DNA of 42,402 nt from Deltaproteobacteria bacterium (GTDB lineage: Bacteria; Myxococcota_A; Polyangia; HGW-17; SLPX01): contig JAGGXR010000165.1 of NCBI GenBank assembly GCA_021162935.1, positions 1 through 42,402 of the forward strand, in the 5' to 3' direction. The notes under the pieces were generated by a model. It did no database searches. It worked only from the letters and a program-made list of their open reading frames with translations, and was not told the DNA's origin. Of this stretch, positions 27,921 through 38,464 are shown piece after piece (the stretch's first letter is position 1; each line of letters opens with the position of its first letter). The position numbers were made by a program, and so were the translations under genes.

Positions 27921-28367
27921 GCGGAAATACGTTCCAGGTCGTTCCCTCCAATTGACGCTTCGCCCAGTGCCGATTTACAGTCTACCCAGTGCCGCCGAGG
28001 CCTTTTCAGTGGGCCGATCTTCGTGTTGTCGTCCGACCTTTGTCCGGTCTTGAGACATTGTGGAATATGACGTGACATGTCGCATAGGTGGAGCATTGTG
28101 TGCCAACTTTTCGTCTCACCACGACCCTCCTGGGGCCTGTCTTGGGCGCTGTGCTGAACGGGGAGGAGGGGAGGATTTTTAGTCAATCCTGGCCAATTGC
28201 CGAAGATTGATGTGTTTTTCTGGAATAGGTGATCTGCGGTGCGTCGGGTCGAGTGAGCCGTCTCGCTGTGTGGCACGAGCCTTGCTCATGCAAAGAGGCG
28301 ACAGAAAGTAAAGGCGTCCTTCGAGACAAGGAGGATGCGAGGTTTGCTGAGCAGAAGGAGGTTCGTC
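27921..28367. other. Intergenic region, nothing recognised
   Basis: A 447-base gap between bamA and the DUF5320 gene. Near 28068 there is an imperfect palindrome around gacatgtc, which could be a protein-binding site, but nothing firm. No RNA gene or terminator with a T-run is visible. Confidence 0.4.
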
Positions 28368-28754
28368 ATGCCGGCATTCGATGGAACGGGACCGAGAGGA
28401 ATTGGAGCAGGTTCTGGATGGGGCATGGGACCCTGTCGTGGAACAGGCCGAGTTGGTCGCGGATACGGTGGCGGGGGTTATGGTCGCGGATACGGTGGCG
28501 GCGGCTATGGTCGCGGATACGGTGGCGGCGGCTATGGTCGCGGATACGGTGGCGGGGGTTATGGTCGCGGATACGGTGGCGGTGCTGGGTATGGCGTAGA
28601 AGCCGGAACCGTTCCTTGGGGCAATGGCTGGACCAGGGAGAATGAGTTGGAGATGCTCAGACGCGAGGTGGCCGATGCGGACCGGTTCCGCAAGGACCTG
28701 GAACGGCGCATCGCAGACCTGGAGGCCGAGGCGACGAAGGACGAGACTGTCTAG
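28368..28754 (+). CDS. DUF5320 family protein with GYGRGYGGG repeats
   Basis: A 128-residue protein. It opens with PAFDGTGPRGIGAGSGWG, the signature start of DUF5320 proteins, which occur next to Mrp-type iron-sulfur carriers and dinitrogenase iron-molybdenum cofactor proteins in anaerobes. The middle is nearly five copies of a nine-residue Gly/Tyr/Arg repeat; the C-terminus is a predicted coiled coil (ENELEMLRREVADADRFRKD). The ATG has AAGGAGG six bases upstream. Function unknown; RNA or protein binding is possible. The usual neighbours are not found here. Confidence 0.8.
   Translation: MPAFDGTGPRGIGAGSGWGMGPCRGTGRVGRGYGGGGYGRGYGGGGYGRGYGGGGYGRGYGGGGYGRGYGGGAGYGVEAGTVPWGNGWTRENELEMLRREVADADRFRKDLERRIADLEAEATKDETV
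28456..28590 (+). repeat. Five 27-bp in-frame repeats
   Basis: Five units of 27 bases (gtcgcggatacggtggcggg...) lie in the DUF5320 gene; four are nearly identical and the last is shortened in similarity. Each encodes a Gly/Arg/Tyr-rich nine-residue unit. Confidence 0.95.
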
Positions 28755-29281: not shown

Positions 29282-30844
29282 TCAGTTCAAATGGTCGCTC
29301 AGGGCTTCGGGCATGGGTGCATGGACAGGAACGGTCTGCACGTACTTGGCCACGATGGGAGCCGTGTTCGCCACGTTCAGCTTGGCCAAGAAGAGATCGA
29401 ATTTCTTTTCGAGTGCTTCCAAGATCGGGCCGAGCCGGTCGGCAGGCAGGGCCCAGAAACGTTCCTTGAGCCGGCTCCATCCCATCTTTCCCGTTTTGTA
29501 GAGAACATGTTCGTCGGCCTGGCTCGGTTGGCGCTCCGCGTCGTGCTGTTCCTTCAGGTAGGCATATATCTGGTTTTTGATGTCCTGTGGAAAAGCTGGA
29601 TGGTCGTAAACGATATTTTGAAATCTGGTGGCCAGGTGGAGTTCCGCCGTGCGGCACTTCGGAAAGTTGTCAAAGGTCTCGTCGGGCAGGGTCGAGGCTG
29701 CGTGCTGAACCACGCCGCAGAGGCCGTACCTGACCCGGGCCACCTGGGACAACTCCTCCAGCCTGTCGAAGTCGACCTCGACCTGAGGAGGCTGGTCAGC
29801 ATCAAACTCCCATCTGGAACGCCGATCCTTCCCGCCTGGTTTTGTCGTTCCTCGGCTGAGCACCCGGTAGGCGCCTTCGTCGCTTCGCACAAGACGGCCG
29901 TCTCGGCGCCCCAAATTGGCCACCCTATTTTGAACAGTTTCCTGAGCCACGGCCCCGTCGGGAAGGACCACGCCTCCATGGATGGTTCCAGTCTGGACCG
30001 AAATCTTGCTCACGGGCGCACGCCCCGGCTTCAGGGTGCGCAGCAGGCCGTCCATGTAGGAGACCAACTCCTCGACCGTGGAGTCCTTGTTGCCGACCTC
30101 GCCGATTTCGCCTCCCACCGACACGGTGATGTCCGTTGGTTCCACGGTGCGGATCCATTCGATCATCTTGGCGGTGACCCCATGATTGTCGGCCTGCTGC
30201 TCGTCCACCGTGTCTTTCGACAGGTCCACCAGGGTCGATGCGTCGATGTCGATGTTGTAGAATCCTGCTTCGACGGCTTCTTTGGTTATGGCTTCGAGCC
30301 TGGCGATTTCCGCGTCTCGGTCCTTGCGATAGCGTGCTGCCTTGACCTGGAAAAGGTCCCCTTGGATGAAGGCAGGTCCTTTGAATCCTTCTTTGATGAG
30401 CCCGGCCAGAACCGCAGCCGCGTATTCAGCGGGCCGATGATCGCTGTAGCAGATTTCAGACGCCGAAATTTCGAAAATGAGCGCGCCGCATCCAATCTTG
30501 ATGGCGGATTTGGCCAGGGTCCGGGCGATGCCGTACGTGATGCCATGAAGGTTCACCGCCGGAACGGTGAACCCCTCCACCTCGCCACGGCCCATGGCCT
30601 CATACAGTCCGTGGATGGAAGCGGGGACGATTCCGACGGCCTGAGCCGCCTCGCGGATGATCCATCGAGCAGCTTCTTTCGTCGCCTCATCTTGCGCAAG
30701 GGCGGCGCTGTGGGCGAGAAGATCGATGGCCTTGCCTCGCAGCGCTGTTTCGTTTCGGACCTGGATCCCCTGGCTGGTCACGGAAAGGGCGGGTTCGACG
30801 CTGGCGATCAGGTTCCCTAGGTTCGTTGCTGTCCGATTCGTCAT
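29282..30844 (-). CDS. Class II fructose-bisphosphate aldolase-like, with insertion
   Basis: A 520-residue cytoplasmic enzyme of the class II aldolase superfamily, longer than usual. The barrel motifs are FTVPAVNLHG (92-101), IQGDLFQV (160-167), FYNIDIDAST (195-204), SVGGEIGEVGN (242-252) and VQTGTIHGG (283-291). It probably splits or forms fructose 1,6-bisphosphate or a related sugar phosphate. In class II aldolases a Zn-ligand His normally follows the catalytic Asp; here that position is Leu (GDLFQ). About 55 residues (300-355) between LPDG and VEVDFDRLEE look inserted, and residues 332-353 are encoded by a copy of a dispersed repeat. The start ATG at 30844 has AAGGA upstream; a longer frame to 30916 is not needed. 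Confidence 0.82.
   Translation of the reverse strand: MTNRTATNLGNLIASVEPALSVTSQGIQVRNETALRGKAIDLLAHSAALAQDEATKEAARWIIREAAQAVGIVPASIHGLYEAMGRGEVEGFTVPAVNLHGITYGIARTLAKSAIKIGCGALIFEISASEICYSDHRPAEYAAAVLAGLIKEGFKGPAFIQGDLFQVKAARYRKDRDAEIARLEAITKEAVEAGFYNIDIDASTLVDLSKDTVDEQQADNHGVTAKMIEWIRTVEPTDITVSVGGEIGEVGNKDSTVEELVSYMDGLLRTLKPGRAPVSKISVQTGTIHGGVVLPDGAVAQETVQNRVANLGRRDGRLVRSDEGAYRVLSRGTTKPGGKDRRSRWEFDADQPPQVEVDFDRLEELSQVARVRYGLCGVVQHAASTLPDETFDNFPKCRTAELHLATRFQNIVYDHPAFPQDIKNQIYAYLKEQHDAERQPSQADEHVLYKTGKMGWSRLKERFWALPADRLGPILEALEKKFDLFLAKLNVANTAPIVAKYVQTVPVHAPMPEALSDHLN
29785..29855 (+). repeat. Dispersed ~70-bp repeat, copy 2, inside the aldolase gene
   Basis: Same element as at 12478 and 36737 (gaggaggctggtcag, catctggaacgccgatcc, ttttgtcgttcc). 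It lies in the aldolase coding sequence with no stop, encoding GTTKPGGKDRRSRWEFDAD on the minus strand (residues about 332-350). Confidence 0.8.
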
Positions 30845-30974
30845 GATGTTCCTTCGGCATTCTCCAGGGTTTGCCTTGGCAGAAGACGTTTTCCACGTCG
30901 TACGGGCCGATTCCATAACACGTGGGGGGCCTTTGTCCAGACGCCAGGCTCGTGGATGGGAGTCAGGGAAATGC

Positions 30975-31002
30975 TTGTCATCGGCACAGGAGCGACTATG
31001 CT
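30975..31002 (+). promoter_or_regulatory. Candidate promoter for the kinase-UbiD-AcnX-MntP unit
   Basis: TTGTCA (30975-30980), 16 bases, TATGCT (30997-31002), followed by the kinase ATG at 31056. A good sigma-70-like match placed just before the first gene of the cluster. Confidence 0.5.
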
Positions 31003-31055
31003 GTTATTGCTTTTTTCTTGTGAACTGGTGTTTCGGTTTTTCGCCAGCGAGGTCT

Positions 31056-32585
31056 ATGGTGGCACGAGACGTGCGGAACAGCCTATTCGACGCATTGCCA
31101 TTCGGGGTGTGCCTCGTGGACGCGGACTTCCGGGTCCTGGATTGCAACGTTCGTTTTGGCGAGTTGGCAGGGATCGGGGGGGCGCCCGAGTCCCTGCTGG
31201 GGATCGACCTGGCCAAGGATCGGGATGCCTTGCGCTATGGCTTCCTGGTTCGGGCCAGGAGAGGGGAACACGTCCATCAGGTGGCCCGTCTTGCCCTTGT
31301 TCCCGGGGCCAATCCGGTGGACGCGGAATTGGACGTCCAGCCCTTTTCCATGGAAGGCAAGCTCCCGCCCATCAAGGGTGATGCCGGTGATTTCCGTGCC
31401 TCGGCCGTGATCGTTTCAGTCTGTCGTGCGAAGACGCTTGGTTCCTCGGTGGAGTCTGGCTCCCAGAGGATCGGCCTGGGGATGCTCGCTGCCGGAATCT
31501 CCCACGAGTTCAATAATTTGCATGCCGGCATCATGGGGTTTCTCCAGCTCGATTTGCGCCGTTCAGACCTGGACCCATTGTTGCGACAGGACCTGGAGAA
31601 GATGTTTGCGCTCGTCAAGCGGGCATCGGCGATCAGCAAGAATCTGATGGCCTTTGCCAGGCGGCGTCATACGATCATGGGGGCCACGGACCTCAAGGCT
31701 TTGATCAGCGAGGCCTTGGACTCGGTGGCCGGAGAACTGGCGCAGGCTGGGGTCTCGGTGGACGTGCATTTCGTCGGTAAGGTTTTGGATGTGTACGTCG
31801 ACCGGAATCAGATTTCCCAGGTCCTGACCAATCTGGTTCGTAACGCGAAGGACGCGATGCTGTTCTCGACCAGCCGTACCCTGGCACTGAACGTCAGCCG
31901 GGAAGGGTCCATGGCCTGCGTGGAGGTCCAGGATTCGGGCAGGGGGATTCCTTCCGATGATTTAGGGCGGGTGTTCGATCCGTTCTTCACCACCAAGGGC
32001 AGTGCCGCCCGGGGACAAAGCCCCGAGAGGCATCTCAACGGGGTGGGGCTCGGCCTGAGTGTCTGTCGGAGTATCACGGAACAGCACGGTGGCTGGATGG
32101 ATGTGGCGAGCCAGGTGGGCCGAGGCAGTTCGTTTCGGGTGTACCTGCCGTTGTTGGAGGCTTTGGGCGATATTGCCGAAAGGACGCCCGTCGATCAGGA
32201 CAAAGTAGGTGGCGACCGACCGTCCGTGCTCGTGGTGGACGACGAGGTCTCCTTGCGGGAGTTGTTGGTCCGGGTCGCCGAACTCGAGGGTGCTGCCTGC
32301 GATCAGGCGGCCGACGGCGCCGATGCCATCGCGATTCTGGAAAAGCGAACCTACGACGTGTTGGTGATGGACATGCAGATGCCGGGCGTTTCCGGTATGG
32401 ACATCCTCGACCACGTCTCAGAGATGCCCGTCGATTCCAGGCCTACCGTCATCGTGGCGACCGGCCGCGTGTCCGACATGGAAGAGGTGGCATCGAAGGT
32501 CCATCACGTCCTGCGAAAGCCATTCGGCATCGAGGAATTCCAGGAAGCGTTCCGGAGCGCCCTGTCGTCCCATCCCGACGGATGA
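31056..32585 (+). CDS. Hybrid histidine kinase, PAS-HisKA-HATPase-REC
   Basis: A 509-residue cytoplasmic signalling protein. A PAS-like domain is at about 1-125 (LFDALPFGVCLVDADFRVLDC). HisKA follows with phosphoacceptor His150 (AAGISHEFNN), HATPase with N-box NLVRNAKDA (Asn263), G1 DSGRGIP, F-box VFDPFFTTK and G2 GVGLGLSV. A C-terminal receiver has VLVVDDE (391-397), phosphoacceptor Asp439 (LVMDMQMPG) and Lys488. No membrane segment is visible, so it senses a cytoplasmic signal. The ATG at 31056 has GCGAGG upstream; the longer frame from 30657 is antisense to the aldolase start. It is followed after 99 bases by the UbiD gene in the same direction, so it may regulate those enzymes. Confidence 0.9.
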   Translation: MVARDVRNSLFDALPFGVCLVDADFRVLDCNVRFGELAGIGGAPESLLGIDLAKDRDALRYGFLVRARRGEHVHQVARLALVPGANPVDAELDVQPFSMEGKLPPIKGDAGDFRASAVIVSVCRAKTLGSSVESGSQRIGLGMLAAGISHEFNNLHAGIMGFLQLDLRRSDLDPLLRQDLEKMFALVKRASAISKNLMAFARRRHTIMGATDLKALISEALDSVAGELAQAGVSVDVHFVGKVLDVYVDRNQISQVLTNLVRNAKDAMLFSTSRTLALNVSREGSMACVEVQDSGRGIPSDDLGRVFDPFFTTKGSAARGQSPERHLNGVGLGLSVCRSITEQHGGWMDVASQVGRGSSFRVYLPLLEALGDIAERTPVDQDKVGGDRPSVLVVDDEVSLRELLVRVAELEGAACDQAADGADAIAILEKRTYDVLVMDMQMPGVSGMDILDHVSEMPVDSRPTVIVATGRVSDMEEVASKVHHVLRKPFGIEEFQEAFRSALSSHPDG

Positions 32586-32684: not shown

Positions 32685-34049
32685 ATGAGTACATTGAGAC
32701 AGTTTTTGGACCAGGCGTCAGCCGACGGCTTGGTCGTGGATTCGAACGAACCCATCGGCCGCACCAAGCCACTGGCCTCGGTCCTTTCGCGAGAGAGCGA
32801 TCAGGTCCACCTCCATCGCGTGGAGGGATACGATGGTCGTCTCGTCTCGGGCCTGGTATCCAGTCGGCGGCTCGCAGCCAGAGCGCTCGGCGTGGAGCCG
32901 GCTGCGTTGCTCGACTCCCTGTCGCGACTCCTCGCGGGAAGCGGCAGCGTTCGGGTCGTGGACCGGGCGCCGTTCGAAGAACATGTGGTGGAACGGCCCG
33001 ACCTGGGGACGTCGTTGCCCTTGCAGCCCTTCTATCCAGGCGACGGCGGCCCCTATGCCACGGCCTTCGTGGTGGCCGCTCGGTCATCGGTGACCGGGCA
33101 GAACCTGTCGTTTCACCGGATGATGTATCTGGGGAAGAACCGATTCGCCGTTCGGGTGGTGCGGCGGCATCTCCACGCCATTCTAGCAGAAGGGCAGGGC
33201 AAGGCGCAGGTGGCTGTGTTTTGTGGGGTGCACCCGGCAGTGCTCCTTGCCGCTGCCGTGTCCGCGGCGCCGGATATGGACGAGCTGCGTCTGGCCGCCA
33301 ATATGCTGGGCGGCCTGGATGTGTTCGAGGTCCTTCCGGAGCTTTTCGTTCCGGCTCACGCGGAGATCGTGCTGACCGGATCCTTCACGGGCGAATTGGT
33401 GGATGAAGGACCGTTCGTGGACCTGACGGGCACCTACGACGGGGTCCGGCGCCAGCCCGTATTCGAAGTGGATCGGCTTTGGATGCGTTCGGATCCCATC
33501 TATCATGCCATCGTGCCGGCAGGTCCCGAACACAAGGTTCTGATGGGCCTGCCCAGGGAAGCTGCTTTGCTGCGGGCGGCGCGTTCCGCCTGCCCGACGG
33601 TCGAAGATGCGGTTCTGACCGCGGGAGGGTCGGGGTGGCTCCACGCCGTGGTTTCGGTTCGAGATTCCGGCCCGGGACAGGCCGTCAACATTGGGACCGC
33701 AGTGCTTGCGGCTCATCAGTCGCTCAAGCGGGTCGTGGTGGTGGACCACGATATCGACATCTTGGCCCAGCAGGACGTCGAATGGGCCCTGGCCACCAGG
33801 GTCCAACCCGACCGGGACATCGTGATTTTGGATCCGGCCCGCGGGTCGAGCCTCGACCCGAGCCGTAGAAAAGACGGCACCACGTCCAAATGGATCGTGG
33901 ACGCGACCATTCCTGCTGGCGCCGATCGGAGCGAATTCCTTCGGGCCGACGCCCAAGGAGACGCCCAAGGAGAGGCCCAAGGAGACGTTCGGGACAACGC
34001 TCGGGGTGACGTGTCCGGCGGCCTCGACCAGACGCAGCGGGGGCGGTGA
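32685..34049 (+). CDS. UbiD-family decarboxylase, archaeal mevalonate-type
   Basis: A 454-residue enzyme of the UbiD prenylated-FMN decarboxylase family. Active-site elements: Arg145 (SFHRMMYLG), Glu237 and Glu241 in TGELVDEGPFVDLTGTYD (235-252), and a C-terminal GTTSKWIVDAT segment. The EGPFVDLTGTYD and MGLPREAALLRAA motifs are the form I associate with archaeal UbiD homologs, among which is anhydromevalonate phosphate decarboxylase, rather than E. coli UbiD. The ATG has GGAGAAGG upstream. Its stop overlaps the next gene, aconitase X. Together they fit the archaeal modified mevalonate pathway. prFMN synthase UbiX is not in the window. The C-terminal 30 residues are a repeat-rich tail (33948-34019). 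Confidence 0.85.
   Translation: MSTLRQFLDQASADGLVVDSNEPIGRTKPLASVLSRESDQVHLHRVEGYDGRLVSGLVSSRRLAARALGVEPAALLDSLSRLLAGSGSVRVVDRAPFEEHVVERPDLGTSLPLQPFYPGDGGPYATAFVVAARSSVTGQNLSFHRMMYLGKNRFAVRVVRRHLHAILAEGQGKAQVAVFCGVHPAVLLAAAVSAAPDMDELRLAANMLGGLDVFEVLPELFVPAHAEIVLTGSFTGELVDEGPFVDLTGTYDGVRRQPVFEVDRLWMRSDPIYHAIVPAGPEHKVLMGLPREAALLRAARSACPTVEDAVLTAGGSGWLHAVVSVRDSGPGQAVNIGTAVLAAHQSLKRVVVVDHDIDILAQQDVEWALATRVQPDRDIVILDPARGSSLDPSRRKDGTTSKWIVDATIPAGADRSEFLRADAQGDAQGEAQGDVRDNARGDVSGGLDQTQRGR
33948..34019 (+). repeat. 12-bp repeat coding an Asp/Gln/Gly tail of the UbiD protein
   Basis: Three clear units of gacgcccaagga followed by three degenerate ones encode DAQGDAQGEAQGDVRD-type sequence at the C-terminus. 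It is in frame and beyond the catalytic fold. Confidence 0.8.
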
Positions 34050-35362
34050 TGGGAGACGGCAGGCAGGACGAGACGAAGCGGCCTGGTCCAACCGATGAAC
34101 AGGCCGAACAGACCGACCTCGAACTGAGCGTCGAGGAGACCTCGATTTTGGAGGGATCCCAGGGGCCGGCGGCTGCCAAGGCCATGGAGATGATCGTGGC
34201 GCTCGGTCGCCTGTACGGGGCCGACCGTCTCGTGCGCGTGCGTTCGGTCCAGGTTGCAGGAGTGTCCTATCATAATCTAGGAGAGGCCGGGCTCGAGTAC
34301 CTCGAAGAGGTGGCTGCCACCGGTCGGGTGTCGGTTCCCATTGCGACGCTGAATCCTGCGGGGATGGATCTGGACGCCTGGGATCGGATGGGCATCGACC
34401 CGAAATTTGCCGAGCAGCAACTTGCCGTGGTCGAGGCCTATCGCCGCGTGGGCGTGATTGTCAACTGCACCTGTACGCCGTATCTGGCCGGGAACCTGCC
34501 GCTTTTTGGCGAGTCGGTGGCCTGGGCGGAGTCGTCGGCCGTGACCTTTGCAAACTCGGTAATTGGCGCGAGAACGAACCGCGAGGGCGGCCCTGCCGCC
34601 CTGGCTGCGGCCCTGGTTGGGCGCACCGCGCGATGGGGCCTGCATCTCGACGAAAATCGGGTCGGTACCCTGCGGGTCGAGGTTCGTGTCCGGCTGACGA
34701 GTTCCTTCGAGTGGGGCCTGCTCGGTGCGTTGATCGGCTGGCGTGCCCCGGGCGCCCTTCCCTGGATCCATCTGGTCCCTTCGCTTGGATCCGCTGGATT
34801 GGACCAGGACGATCGGCCCGACCTGGATGCTCTCAAGGCGCTCAGCGCCGCCCTGCCCACGTACGGCGCGCAGCCCATGTTCCACATCGATCAGGTGACT
34901 CCCGAGGCAAATCGGTACCCCCTGCCCGACGAGGTCCTGGTCCTGACCGAGGCGGATTTTGTCGAAGGGGTGCGTCGGCTCAACGACCCGGTGGACGAGG
35001 TGGACCTCGTGTGTCTGGGGTGCCCCCATGCTTCGCTGGACGAAATCCGTGCGGCTGCCGATGCCCTGGCTGGGCGCACGGTGACCAAACCTGTGTGGCT
35101 GAGCACGTCGAGAACGGTCTACGAAATGGCCCGAGGGCTCGGTCTCGTGGAACGACTCGAACGAACCGGCGCCCTGGTTTTGCGGGACACCTGCTTCGTG
35201 GTGGCGCCGCTGCGAGGCCGGTTCCATCGTTTGGCTACCACGTCCGCGAAGGGCTGTTACTATTCGCGTGGCCACAACGACATGGCGGTTCGCACGGGAA
35301 CCCTGCAGCAGTGCGTGGAGGCCGCGGTTACGGGGAGGTTCCCCACGGGGGCCGGCAGGTGA
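34049..35362 (+). CDS. Aconitase X catalytic (large) subunit
   Basis: A 437-residue iron-sulfur enzyme of the AcnX (former DUF521) family. Key segments: NCTCTPYLAGN at 139-149, ESSAVTFANSVIGARTNREG at 161-180, HLDENR at 199-204, and near the C-terminus CLGCPHAS and LRDTCFV. These Cys residues are the [4Fe-4S] ligand candidates. AcnX family members include mevalonate 5-phosphate dehydratase of archaea and cis-3-hydroxyproline dehydratase. The partner decarboxylase of the archaeal pathway is exactly the gene upstream, which favours the first. Many AcnX enzymes need a separate small subunit (DUF126); none is seen in the window and the domain is not fused. ATG 34049 overlaps the UbiD stop (a GTG at 34046 is an alternative). 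Confidence 0.88.
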   Translation: MGDGRQDETKRPGPTDEQAEQTDLELSVEETSILEGSQGPAAAKAMEMIVALGRLYGADRLVRVRSVQVAGVSYHNLGEAGLEYLEEVAATGRVSVPIATLNPAGMDLDAWDRMGIDPKFAEQQLAVVEAYRRVGVIVNCTCTPYLAGNLPLFGESVAWAESSAVTFANSVIGARTNREGGPAALAAALVGRTARWGLHLDENRVGTLRVEVRVRLTSSFEWGLLGALIGWRAPGALPWIHLVPSLGSAGLDQDDRPDLDALKALSAALPTYGAQPMFHIDQVTPEANRYPLPDEVLVLTEADFVEGVRRLNDPVDEVDLVCLGCPHASLDEIRAAADALAGRTVTKPVWLSTSRTVYEMARGLGLVERLERTGALVLRDTCFVVAPLRGRFHRLATTSAKGCYYSRGHNDMAVRTGTLQQCVEAAVTGRFPTGAGR

Positions 35363-35916
35363 CCTGGTCCGCGATTTTCCTACTCGCCATCGCCCTTGCG
35401 GCGGATGCGTTCAGCATCGGAGCCACCATTGGGCTCACCCACCGGACCGCCCGCCAGGTGTTTCGCGTCTCGTTCCACTTCGGTTTGTTTCAGGCACTCA
35501 TGCCCCTTGCCAGCGCCACGATCGGGACCAGGATCCGTCCCTGGGTCGACCCCTGGGGTCGCTACCTCGCCTTTGCCTTGTTGCTCTTTGTCGGTGTCAG
35601 GATGGCTGTCTCGTCCTTTGATGTCAAACATCGGGAAGATGCGGCCCAGACCGTCGATTTGACGAAGGGATGGAATCTGATCGGCCTGTCCGTGTCCGTG
35701 AGCATAGACGCGCTTCTGGCTGGGTTTGTGCTTGGACTGCACGGTAGCCTCATTCTGTCCGCCGTGTCCATCATTGGGGCGGTGACCTTCGTTCTGACGA
35801 TGGTGGGCATGCTGCTCGCCCGGTCCGTGGGTTCCAGGATCGGAACGAGATCCGAGTTGATCGCCGGATTCGTGCTCGTAGCCCTCGGGGTGGACGCCCT
35901 GCTCGGCGGGTTTTGA
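35359..35916 (+). CDS. mntP: MntP-type manganese efflux pump
   Basis: A 185-residue inner membrane protein with about six hydrophobic segments. The two-fold repeat motif of MntP is seen as AADAFSIG (14-21) and SIDALLAG (about 113-120). It probably exports Mn(II). The start is GTG at 35359, overlapping the AcnX stop by four bases; a conventional ATG further upstream would lie within AcnX. Co-translation with UbiD and AcnX is unexplained: it may be incidental, or relate to metal supply. No mntP riboswitch is expected inside an operon and none is visible. Confidence 0.85.
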   Translation: MTWSAIFLLAIALAADAFSIGATIGLTHRTARQVFRVSFHFGLFQALMPLASATIGTRIRPWVDPWGRYLAFALLLFVGVRMAVSSFDVKHREDAAQTVDLTKGWNLIGLSVSVSIDALLAGFVLGLHGSLILSAVSIIGAVTFVLTMVGMLLARSVGSRIGTRSELIAGFVLVALGVDALLGGF

Positions 35917-37297: not shown

Positions 37298-38464
37298 TCA
37301 GTAGGCGCGCTGAGCGGCGAAGTGGGCGAGGTCCACGAGAGCGTCCCGGAAGGTAGATGCCGGGAGGTCGGCAAGGCTGGCCGCAGCCTTGTCCGCGTGT
37401 CCGATGGCCACCTGTCTCGTTCGATCGATGGCTCCGGTTCTGGTTACGGCCTGCATCACGGAGCGGGCCTCGATCAACGCATCCTGTTCAGGCAGTTCGG
37501 TCAGGTGCGCGACGGCGTCGCGTAGTTCGGGTTTTTCCTCGATGGCTTCGATGAGGGGTAGTGTCACCTTGCCCTCGGACAGGTCCTTGCCCAGGTTCTT
37601 GCCGAGTTCGTCCGGGTCGGCGAAGTAGTCGAGCAGGTCGTCGGTCACCTGGAAGGCGGTGCCCAGTTCCAAGCCGAAGGTTTCGAGGATTCGGGTTTCC
37701 GGATCGGCCGGCAGACCGCCAAGCGATGAGCACCAGGCCATGAGCGAGGCGGTTTTGCCTTGGATGACCTCGAAGTAGGCGGCTCGGGACAGGTCCAGTT
37801 CGTCTCTGCTTCTGATCTGGATGGCCTCGGCGTTCACCATGGACGTGACGGTGCGATTCAGGCTCAAGACGGCCTCGATGTGTCCAGTCGAAGCGACTTC
37901 GGATAGGGCCAGTGCGAGGCAGTAGTCCCCCGACAGAACCGAGAAGCTGTTGTTCCACACGATTCTGGAGGTAGGGCGGCCGCGGCGTCGATCGCCTTCG
38001 TCGAGCACGTCATCATGCAGCAGGCTGGCGGAGTGGATGAGTTCGGCGGCGCAGGCGATGGGAACCGCCACGTCGTCCAGATCGTCACGGCAGGCACCAG
38101 CGGCCAGGAGTACGAGGGCTGGCCTGATGCGTTTTCCACCGGCTTCGATCAGGTGCAGGGCCACCTTGCCGATGGGGTCTCCGAGCCGCGGGTCCACCAA
38201 GGCCTGGTGGAGACGCGCCTCGACGGCCCGGATGCCCGGTTCGACGACACGGTACCAGTTTGGCCTGTCGTGATGCCGATGGGAGTCGGCCTGCCTGCCG
38301 TCCTGCGGTTCAGCCACCGTTGGATTATGTGGCGTTCGAGCCGGGACCATTGAATTATGTGGCGTTCGAGCCGGATCCGTTGGAGTCGAGGCGGACGGCA
38401 TGTCTGAGGACTCGGATCCCAAGGCTTGTGGATTGCGGCGACTCATGGACAACTTTTTTTGCAC
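37298..38464 (-). CDS. Polyprenyl diphosphate synthase
   Basis: A 388-residue enzyme of the trans-prenyltransferase family that builds long isoprenoid chains (for quinones or carriers) from IPP and an allylic starter. The first aspartate-rich motif is DDVLDEGDRRR (151-161), with GGKRIRP at 109-115; the second is DDLLDYFAD (about 286-294), with KNLGKDLSEGK after it. The first 65 residues are Pro/Thr/Asn-rich and unrelated to the fold. Its product length cannot be read from sequence. The start is uncertain: GTG 38464 or ATG 38446. It lies near UbiD-AcnX, which would supply its IPP, and ends 48 bases from the hairpin repeat at 37250. Confidence 0.92.
   Translation of the reverse strand: MQKKLSMSRRNPQALGSESSDMPSASTPTDPARTPHNSMVPARTPHNPTVAEPQDGRQADSHRHHDRPNWYRVVEPGIRAVEARLHQALVDPRLGDPIGKVALHLIEAGGKRIRPALVLLAAGACRDDLDDVAVPIACAAELIHSASLLHDDVLDEGDRRRGRPTSRIVWNNSFSVLSGDYCLALALSEVASTGHIEAVLSLNRTVTSMVNAEAIQIRSRDELDLSRAAYFEVIQGKTASLMAWCSSLGGLPADPETRILETFGLELGTAFQVTDDLLDYFADPDELGKNLGKDLSEGKVTLPLIEAIEEKPELRDAVAHLTELPEQDALIEARSVMQAVTRTGAIDRTRQVAIGHADKAAASLADLPASTFRDALVDLAHFAAQRAY
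38316..38375 (-). repeat. Two 30-bp in-frame repeats in the synthase N-terminus
   Basis: Two units of 30 bases (accattgaattatgtggcgt... and variant) give a duplicated PARTPHN segment. In frame. Confidence 0.85.

Follow-up and report, generated by a model that had tools for sequence, protein, structure and literature searches.

Genes for a probable archaeal-type mevalonate branch, encoding UbiD and AcnX homologs, in a deltaproteobacterial genome

The archaeal (modified) mevalonate pathway has been described in the form found in Aeropyrum pernix (Hayakawa 2018, doi 10.1073/pnas.1809154115, as cited in PMC13001223). PMC13001223 also ascribes an archaeal-type pathway to some Chloroflexota on the basis of Kanno 2024 (doi 10.1128/aem.01106-24, cited therein), in which the pathway is described for Ca. 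Promineifilum breve. Chloroflexota is the one other bacterial group in which the archaeal branch was previously known. For Ca. Promineifilum breve, the activities of the two key enzymes have reportedly been confirmed. Our literature search found no report of the pathway for the lineage treated here; most subscription papers were beyond its reach, and an earlier mention is possible.

The DNA analysed is a stretch of 42,402 nucleotides, referred to below as the window. The archaeal (modified) mevalonate pathway is defined by two enzymes, anhydromevalonate phosphate decarboxylase (AMPD) and phosphomevalonate dehydratase (PMDh), and two adjacent genes in the window very probably encode the former and the large subunit of the latter; this assignment, and the catalysis and flux that would follow from it, are drawn from sequence comparison. 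The genes and their neighbors are as follows.

30657..32585, plus strand: hybrid histidine kinase with PAS, HisKA, HATPase and receiver parts (Pfam), upstream of the UbiD gene
32685..34049, plus strand: UbiD-family decarboxylase, likely AMPD, ATG start at 32685 and stop at 34049 (Pfam, NCBIfam, motif, tree and AU tests)
34046..35362, plus strand: AcnX type IIb large subunit, likely the PMDh large subunit, GTG start at 34046 (Pfam, PDB, sites and tree)
35359..35916, plus strand: MntP-type manganese efflux pump (Pfam Mntp, 129 bits)
37301..38464, minus strand: polyprenyl diphosphate synthase (Pfam polyprenyl_synt, 202 bits)

A preliminary description of this DNA had placed the UbiD and AcnX genes side by side with overlapping stop and start, behind a histidine kinase and near a prenyl diphosphate synthase. 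This arrangement was confirmed: the two open reading frames share four bases (GTGA), the Pfam matches identified the gene ahead of the pair as a hybrid kinase, and the polyprenyl synthetase gene was found about 2 kb downstream of AcnX on the opposite strand. The motifs quoted for UbiD and AcnX were likewise found in the sequence, and DUF126 and UbiX were indeed absent from the window, both being located on other contigs of the genome. The polyprenyl diphosphate synthase is a consumer of IPP and DMAPP, and the upstream histidine kinase is a possible regulator of the pathway. The MntP gene, with a predicted start near 35359, would adjoin the AcnX stop, and the pump is probably unrelated to the isoprenoid pathway. 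Elsewhere in the window, a 544-aa open reading frame on the minus strand (29282-30916) matched neither Pfam nor NCBIfam families at E <= 0.001, and another (28335-28754) carries many repeated Gly-Tyr-Gly-Arg units.

The AcnX protein of the window matched the Pfam AcnX family with 441 bits, and its best PDB match was 7cnr_A, the large subunit of Thermococcus kodakarensis AcnX (TkAcnX), with 305 bits. The residues of the T. kodakarensis cluster and mevalonate 5-phosphate (MVA5P) site are listed by Watanabe et al. (PMC8184944). By alignment, all 14 of these [Fe-S] and MVA5P-site positions are kept in the window protein (A71, G72, V73, S74, N77, N103, C143, E162, S163, S164, C326, C383, K402 and Y406). 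The cluster cysteines 110, 283 and 342 of TkAcnX correspond to C143, C326 and C383, and its MVA5P-site residues Gly48, Val49, Ser50, Asn53, Asn79, Glu129, Ser130, Ser131, Lys361 and Tyr365 are identical in the window protein. In A. pernix, the three matching cysteines were shown by mutagenesis to be required for the iron-sulfur cluster (PMC10040528).

The AcnX family also includes cis-3-hydroxy-L-proline (C3LHyp) dehydratases, so AcnX and UbiD might instead serve the catabolism of another hydroxy acid, such as dehydration of cis-3-hydroxy-L-proline, with an unrelated substrate for UbiD. The nearest NCBIfam equivalog of the window AcnX is in fact C3LHyp dehydratase, but the score of 294 bits lies far under the cutoff of 700, and in the PDB search a C3LHyp dehydratase scored only 215 bits against the 305 of TkAcnX. 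Unlike C3LHyp dehydratases, the window protein has split subunits and the MVA5P-site residues, and it retains the phosphate-binding N103, the G-V-S loop and the type II cysteine positions. In the AcnX tree it belongs to a clade of six rows (SH-aLRT 99) on the archaeal side, on a separate branch far from the C3LHyp dehydratases (100). Genes for proline racemase or hydroxyproline metabolism do not lie alongside, unlike at plasmid C3LHyp loci, and the operon of the relatives holds genes for isopentenyl phosphate kinase (IPK) and mevalonate kinase (MVK). With cutoff, residues, tree and context all against it, an identity as hydroxyproline dehydratase was rejected, and we regard use of the gene pair for other hydroxy acids as very unlikely. 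The window AcnX is most likely the PMDh large subunit, which would participate in dehydration of mevalonate 5-phosphate. Searches of plasmids yielded outgroup sequences only. An AcnX lacking annotation on a Cupriavidus necator plasmid (L194, 3001-4242), with 41.6% identity to the window protein, forms a long branch on the archaeal side of the tree.

The UbiD protein matched the Pfam families UbiD (170 bits) and UbiD_C (115 bits), and NCBIfam TIGR00148 with 309 bits. Among its PDB matches no solved AMPD was present; the best was 6h6x, the furan-dicarboxylate decarboxylase HmfF. The protein carries the motif EGPFVDLTGTYD, which fits the pattern EGPFxD common to the homologs of archaea, Chloroflexota and the relatives. 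This pattern, a signature of the archaeal set derived in the present analysis and not from literature, occurs in 13/13 relatives, 13/13 Chloroflexota rows and 36/37 archaeal rows, and EGPFGEF stands in its place in six of seven other bacterial UbiDs. In the UbiD tree, in which the archaeal AMPDs were assigned by operon context, none being a biochemically characterised AMPD, the window protein fell on the archaeal side, in a clade of 13 relatives with an SH-aLRT of 99, and the other bacterial UbiDs stood apart (97). Holding the window protein together with these other bacterial UbiDs was rejected by the AU test (p = 0.002). Placement of the relatives with the outgroup was not rejected (p = 0.38), and their clade may root in more than one place relative to the archaeal UbiDs. 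The UbiD protein is thus most likely an AMPD, prFMN-dependent by family, which would decarboxylate trans-anhydromevalonate 5-phosphate. The phylogeny proposed in the preliminary description as a check therefore grouped both UbiD and AcnX with archaeal homologs and not with hydroxyproline- or aromatic-acid-specific families.

We also searched for the remaining pathway genes in the source genome, a draft of 168 contigs (C-numbers below) with 97% completeness and an estimated contamination of 3.15%. The gene for the AcnX small subunit, DUF126, was found on C27 (2530-2937), directly upstream of the IPK gene. The DUF126 protein aligns with 7cnr_B, with GKGSTVGSY, and contains the Ser62-Thr63-Val64 triad. 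The IPK exceeded the cutoff of 120 for NF040647 with 190 bits, and its PDB matches were 3ll9 and other IPKs. Genes for MVK, HMG-CoA reductase (HMGR) and IDI-2 were found together on C101, and UbiX on C10 (7266-7937; TIGR00421, 162 bits against a cutoff of 108.9). No match to TIGR01240, the diphosphomevalonate decarboxylase (MDD) of the classical pathway, was observed in this genome at E <= 0.001. The genome search that the preliminary description had called for thus yielded DUF126, UbiX and IPK but not MDD. The source genome carries nearly the whole archaeal mevalonate gene set, spread over three contigs with UbiX on a fourth.

Since the genome is a draft with some estimated contamination, the window genes could be thought to come from a contaminant or a mis-binned archaeal contig. 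The GC content of the window (0.608) and its tetranucleotide profile, however, match those of the other contigs, its remaining open reading frames are of bacterial type (for example an outer-membrane assembly protein-like protein and MntP), and the same genes, forming their own clade, recur in several relatives from the same family, order and class. Contamination was discarded on composition and presence in relatives, and its probability appears negligible.

With these genes, HMG-CoA would be converted to mevalonate by HMGR and then to mevalonate 5-phosphate by MVK (both on C101). PMDh, composed of the window AcnX and the C27 DUF126 with a [4Fe-4S] cluster, would yield trans-anhydromevalonate 5-phosphate, which the window UbiD, as AMPD with prFMN from the C10 UbiX, would decarboxylate to isopentenyl phosphate. 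The predicted last steps are formation of IPP by IPK (C27) and of DMAPP by IDI-2 (C101), followed by polyprenyl diphosphates. The gene set has in common with the A. pernix-type pathway AMPD, both PMDh subunits, IPK, MVK, HMGR, IDI-2 and UbiX, together with the cluster and MVA5P sites. It differs in that the host is bacterial, the genes lie on several contigs, HMGR groups with bacterial relatives and MEP genes are present too. The proposal of a bacterium with the archaeal mevalonate branch is therefore supported by families, sites, trees and genome searches, from which the catalysis itself is inferred.

We then compared 39 genomes, including the source genome; related genomes are denoted by G-numbers. 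MDD was found above cutoff in 21 of the 39 and AcnX in 15, both together only in G013, indicating that a genome with the archaeal branch hardly ever has MDD as well. A complete run of IDI, HMGR, MVK, UbiD, AcnX, DUF126 and IPK was observed in G002 (L112), and in G001, of another genus in the family of the source genome, DUF126 and IPK were found with an AcnX fragment. In Bathyarchaeota, Thorarchaeota and other archaea, UbiD, AcnX and DUF126 are adjacent, often with MVK, IPK, IDI and prenyl synthase. Among 379 evenly sampled genomes of the phylum, presumably Myxococcota, strong AcnX matches were limited to the source genome, G004, G006 and G016, and three further matches were weaker, indicating that the trait is rare. 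Two other genomes gave partial or empty patterns: G003 (same order, 93% complete) has HMGR and a marginal AcnX but no match to DUF126, MDD or IspH, and G017 (96% complete) was without match to HMGR, MDD, IspH and AcnX.

As in Ca. Promineifilum breve, the host is a bacterium carrying PMDh and AMPD, but it belongs to another bacterial lineage. A single bacterial origin shared with Chloroflexota was rejected for UbiD, as the relatives and Chloroflexota could not be held in one clade (AU p = 7e-10), and in the UbiD and AcnX trees the Chloroflexota homologs form two groups, both apart from that of the source genome. The archaeal branch apparently reached a second bacterial lineage by separate acquisition. 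In the IPK tree, a branch with a support of 99 likewise has 13 relatives on one side. In the HMGR tree, where the archaea were represented by three Lokiarchaeal sequences only, the HMGRs of the source genome, G002 and G016 fall together in a clade supported at 100/99, inside the same class and away from the Lokiarchaeal ones. Together, the UbiD, AcnX, IPK and HMGR trees fit a history in which a lineage already having mevalonate genes exchanged its lower branch. Most likely, the archaeal-type lower branch replaced MDD in a lineage with its own mevalonate-pathway HMGR.

The exceptional genome, G013, carries on its contig C209 (L035, 660-8870) genes for an IDI-2-like protein, a GHMP kinase, MDD, a second GHMP kinase, HMGR, UbiD, AcnX and DUF126, with an IPK fragment at the end of a different contig, and its cell would have both lower mevalonate branches. 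The IPK tree puts G013 with Chloroflexota; for UbiD, keeping all relatives together was not rejected (AU p = 0.165), and an independent acquisition of the G013 set is not firm.

Besides the mevalonate route, IPP may have another source in this bacterium. Absence of the MEP pathway, at first suggested by a weak IspH match, was dropped after the other MEP enzymes were found, namely Dxr (C114), IspG (C140), and a fused IspD-IspF and IspE (C22). IspE and IspF exceed their curated cutoffs, and Dxr, IspG and IspD fall under theirs. Dxr, IspG and IspDF were also detected in G001, and the MEP proteins of the two genomes are only 34-45% identical with key motifs intact in both, which suggests selection and speaks against contamination. 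The sole IspH homolog of the source genome, encoded on C22 (L031, 7314-8231, minus strand) between cytidylate-kinase-like and ribosomal-S1-like genes, reached 94.5 bits where the cutoff is 188. In alignment it keeps three cysteines, those of the Fe-S cluster, but shows H41D, H74C, H124A and E126D; the four replaced residues are conserved active-site residues of IspH. A complete classical or MEP pathway without IPK, named in the preliminary description as refuting its reading, is not what the genome shows: IPK is present and MDD absent, and the MEP genes come with a diverged IspH.

From the intact motifs of Dxr, IspD-F, IspE and IspG, and their counterparts in G001, it could be argued that the cell makes its isoprenoids through MEP and has the mevalonate set as an accessory, for example for a specialised isoprenoid or external mevalonate. 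We consider this unlikely, given that His41, His74, His124 and Glu126 are missing from the single IspH homolog, whose score lies below the cutoff, and that G002, G013 and G025 hold the archaeal set although searches for Dxr, IspG, IspF and IspD found nothing in them. In the reading favored here, the family of the source genome also kept the MEP enzymes up to IspG, with IspH having diverged. A conceivable explanation, offered tentatively and short of being probable, is that a complete archaeal-type mevalonate pathway stands beside an MEP pathway selected up to IspG without canonical IspH, which either ends at HMBPP, for signalling or other use, or has its last step performed by the repurposed IspH-like protein.

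The Chloroflexota precedent lessens the surprise of an archaeal mevalonate branch in a bacterium. What the present genomes offer is intermediates: G013, with both lower branches in one operon, and the family of the source genome and G001, with the archaeal mevalonate pathway and most of MEP. These make the swapping of an essential pathway a testable question, and the family may show how such a swap occurs.
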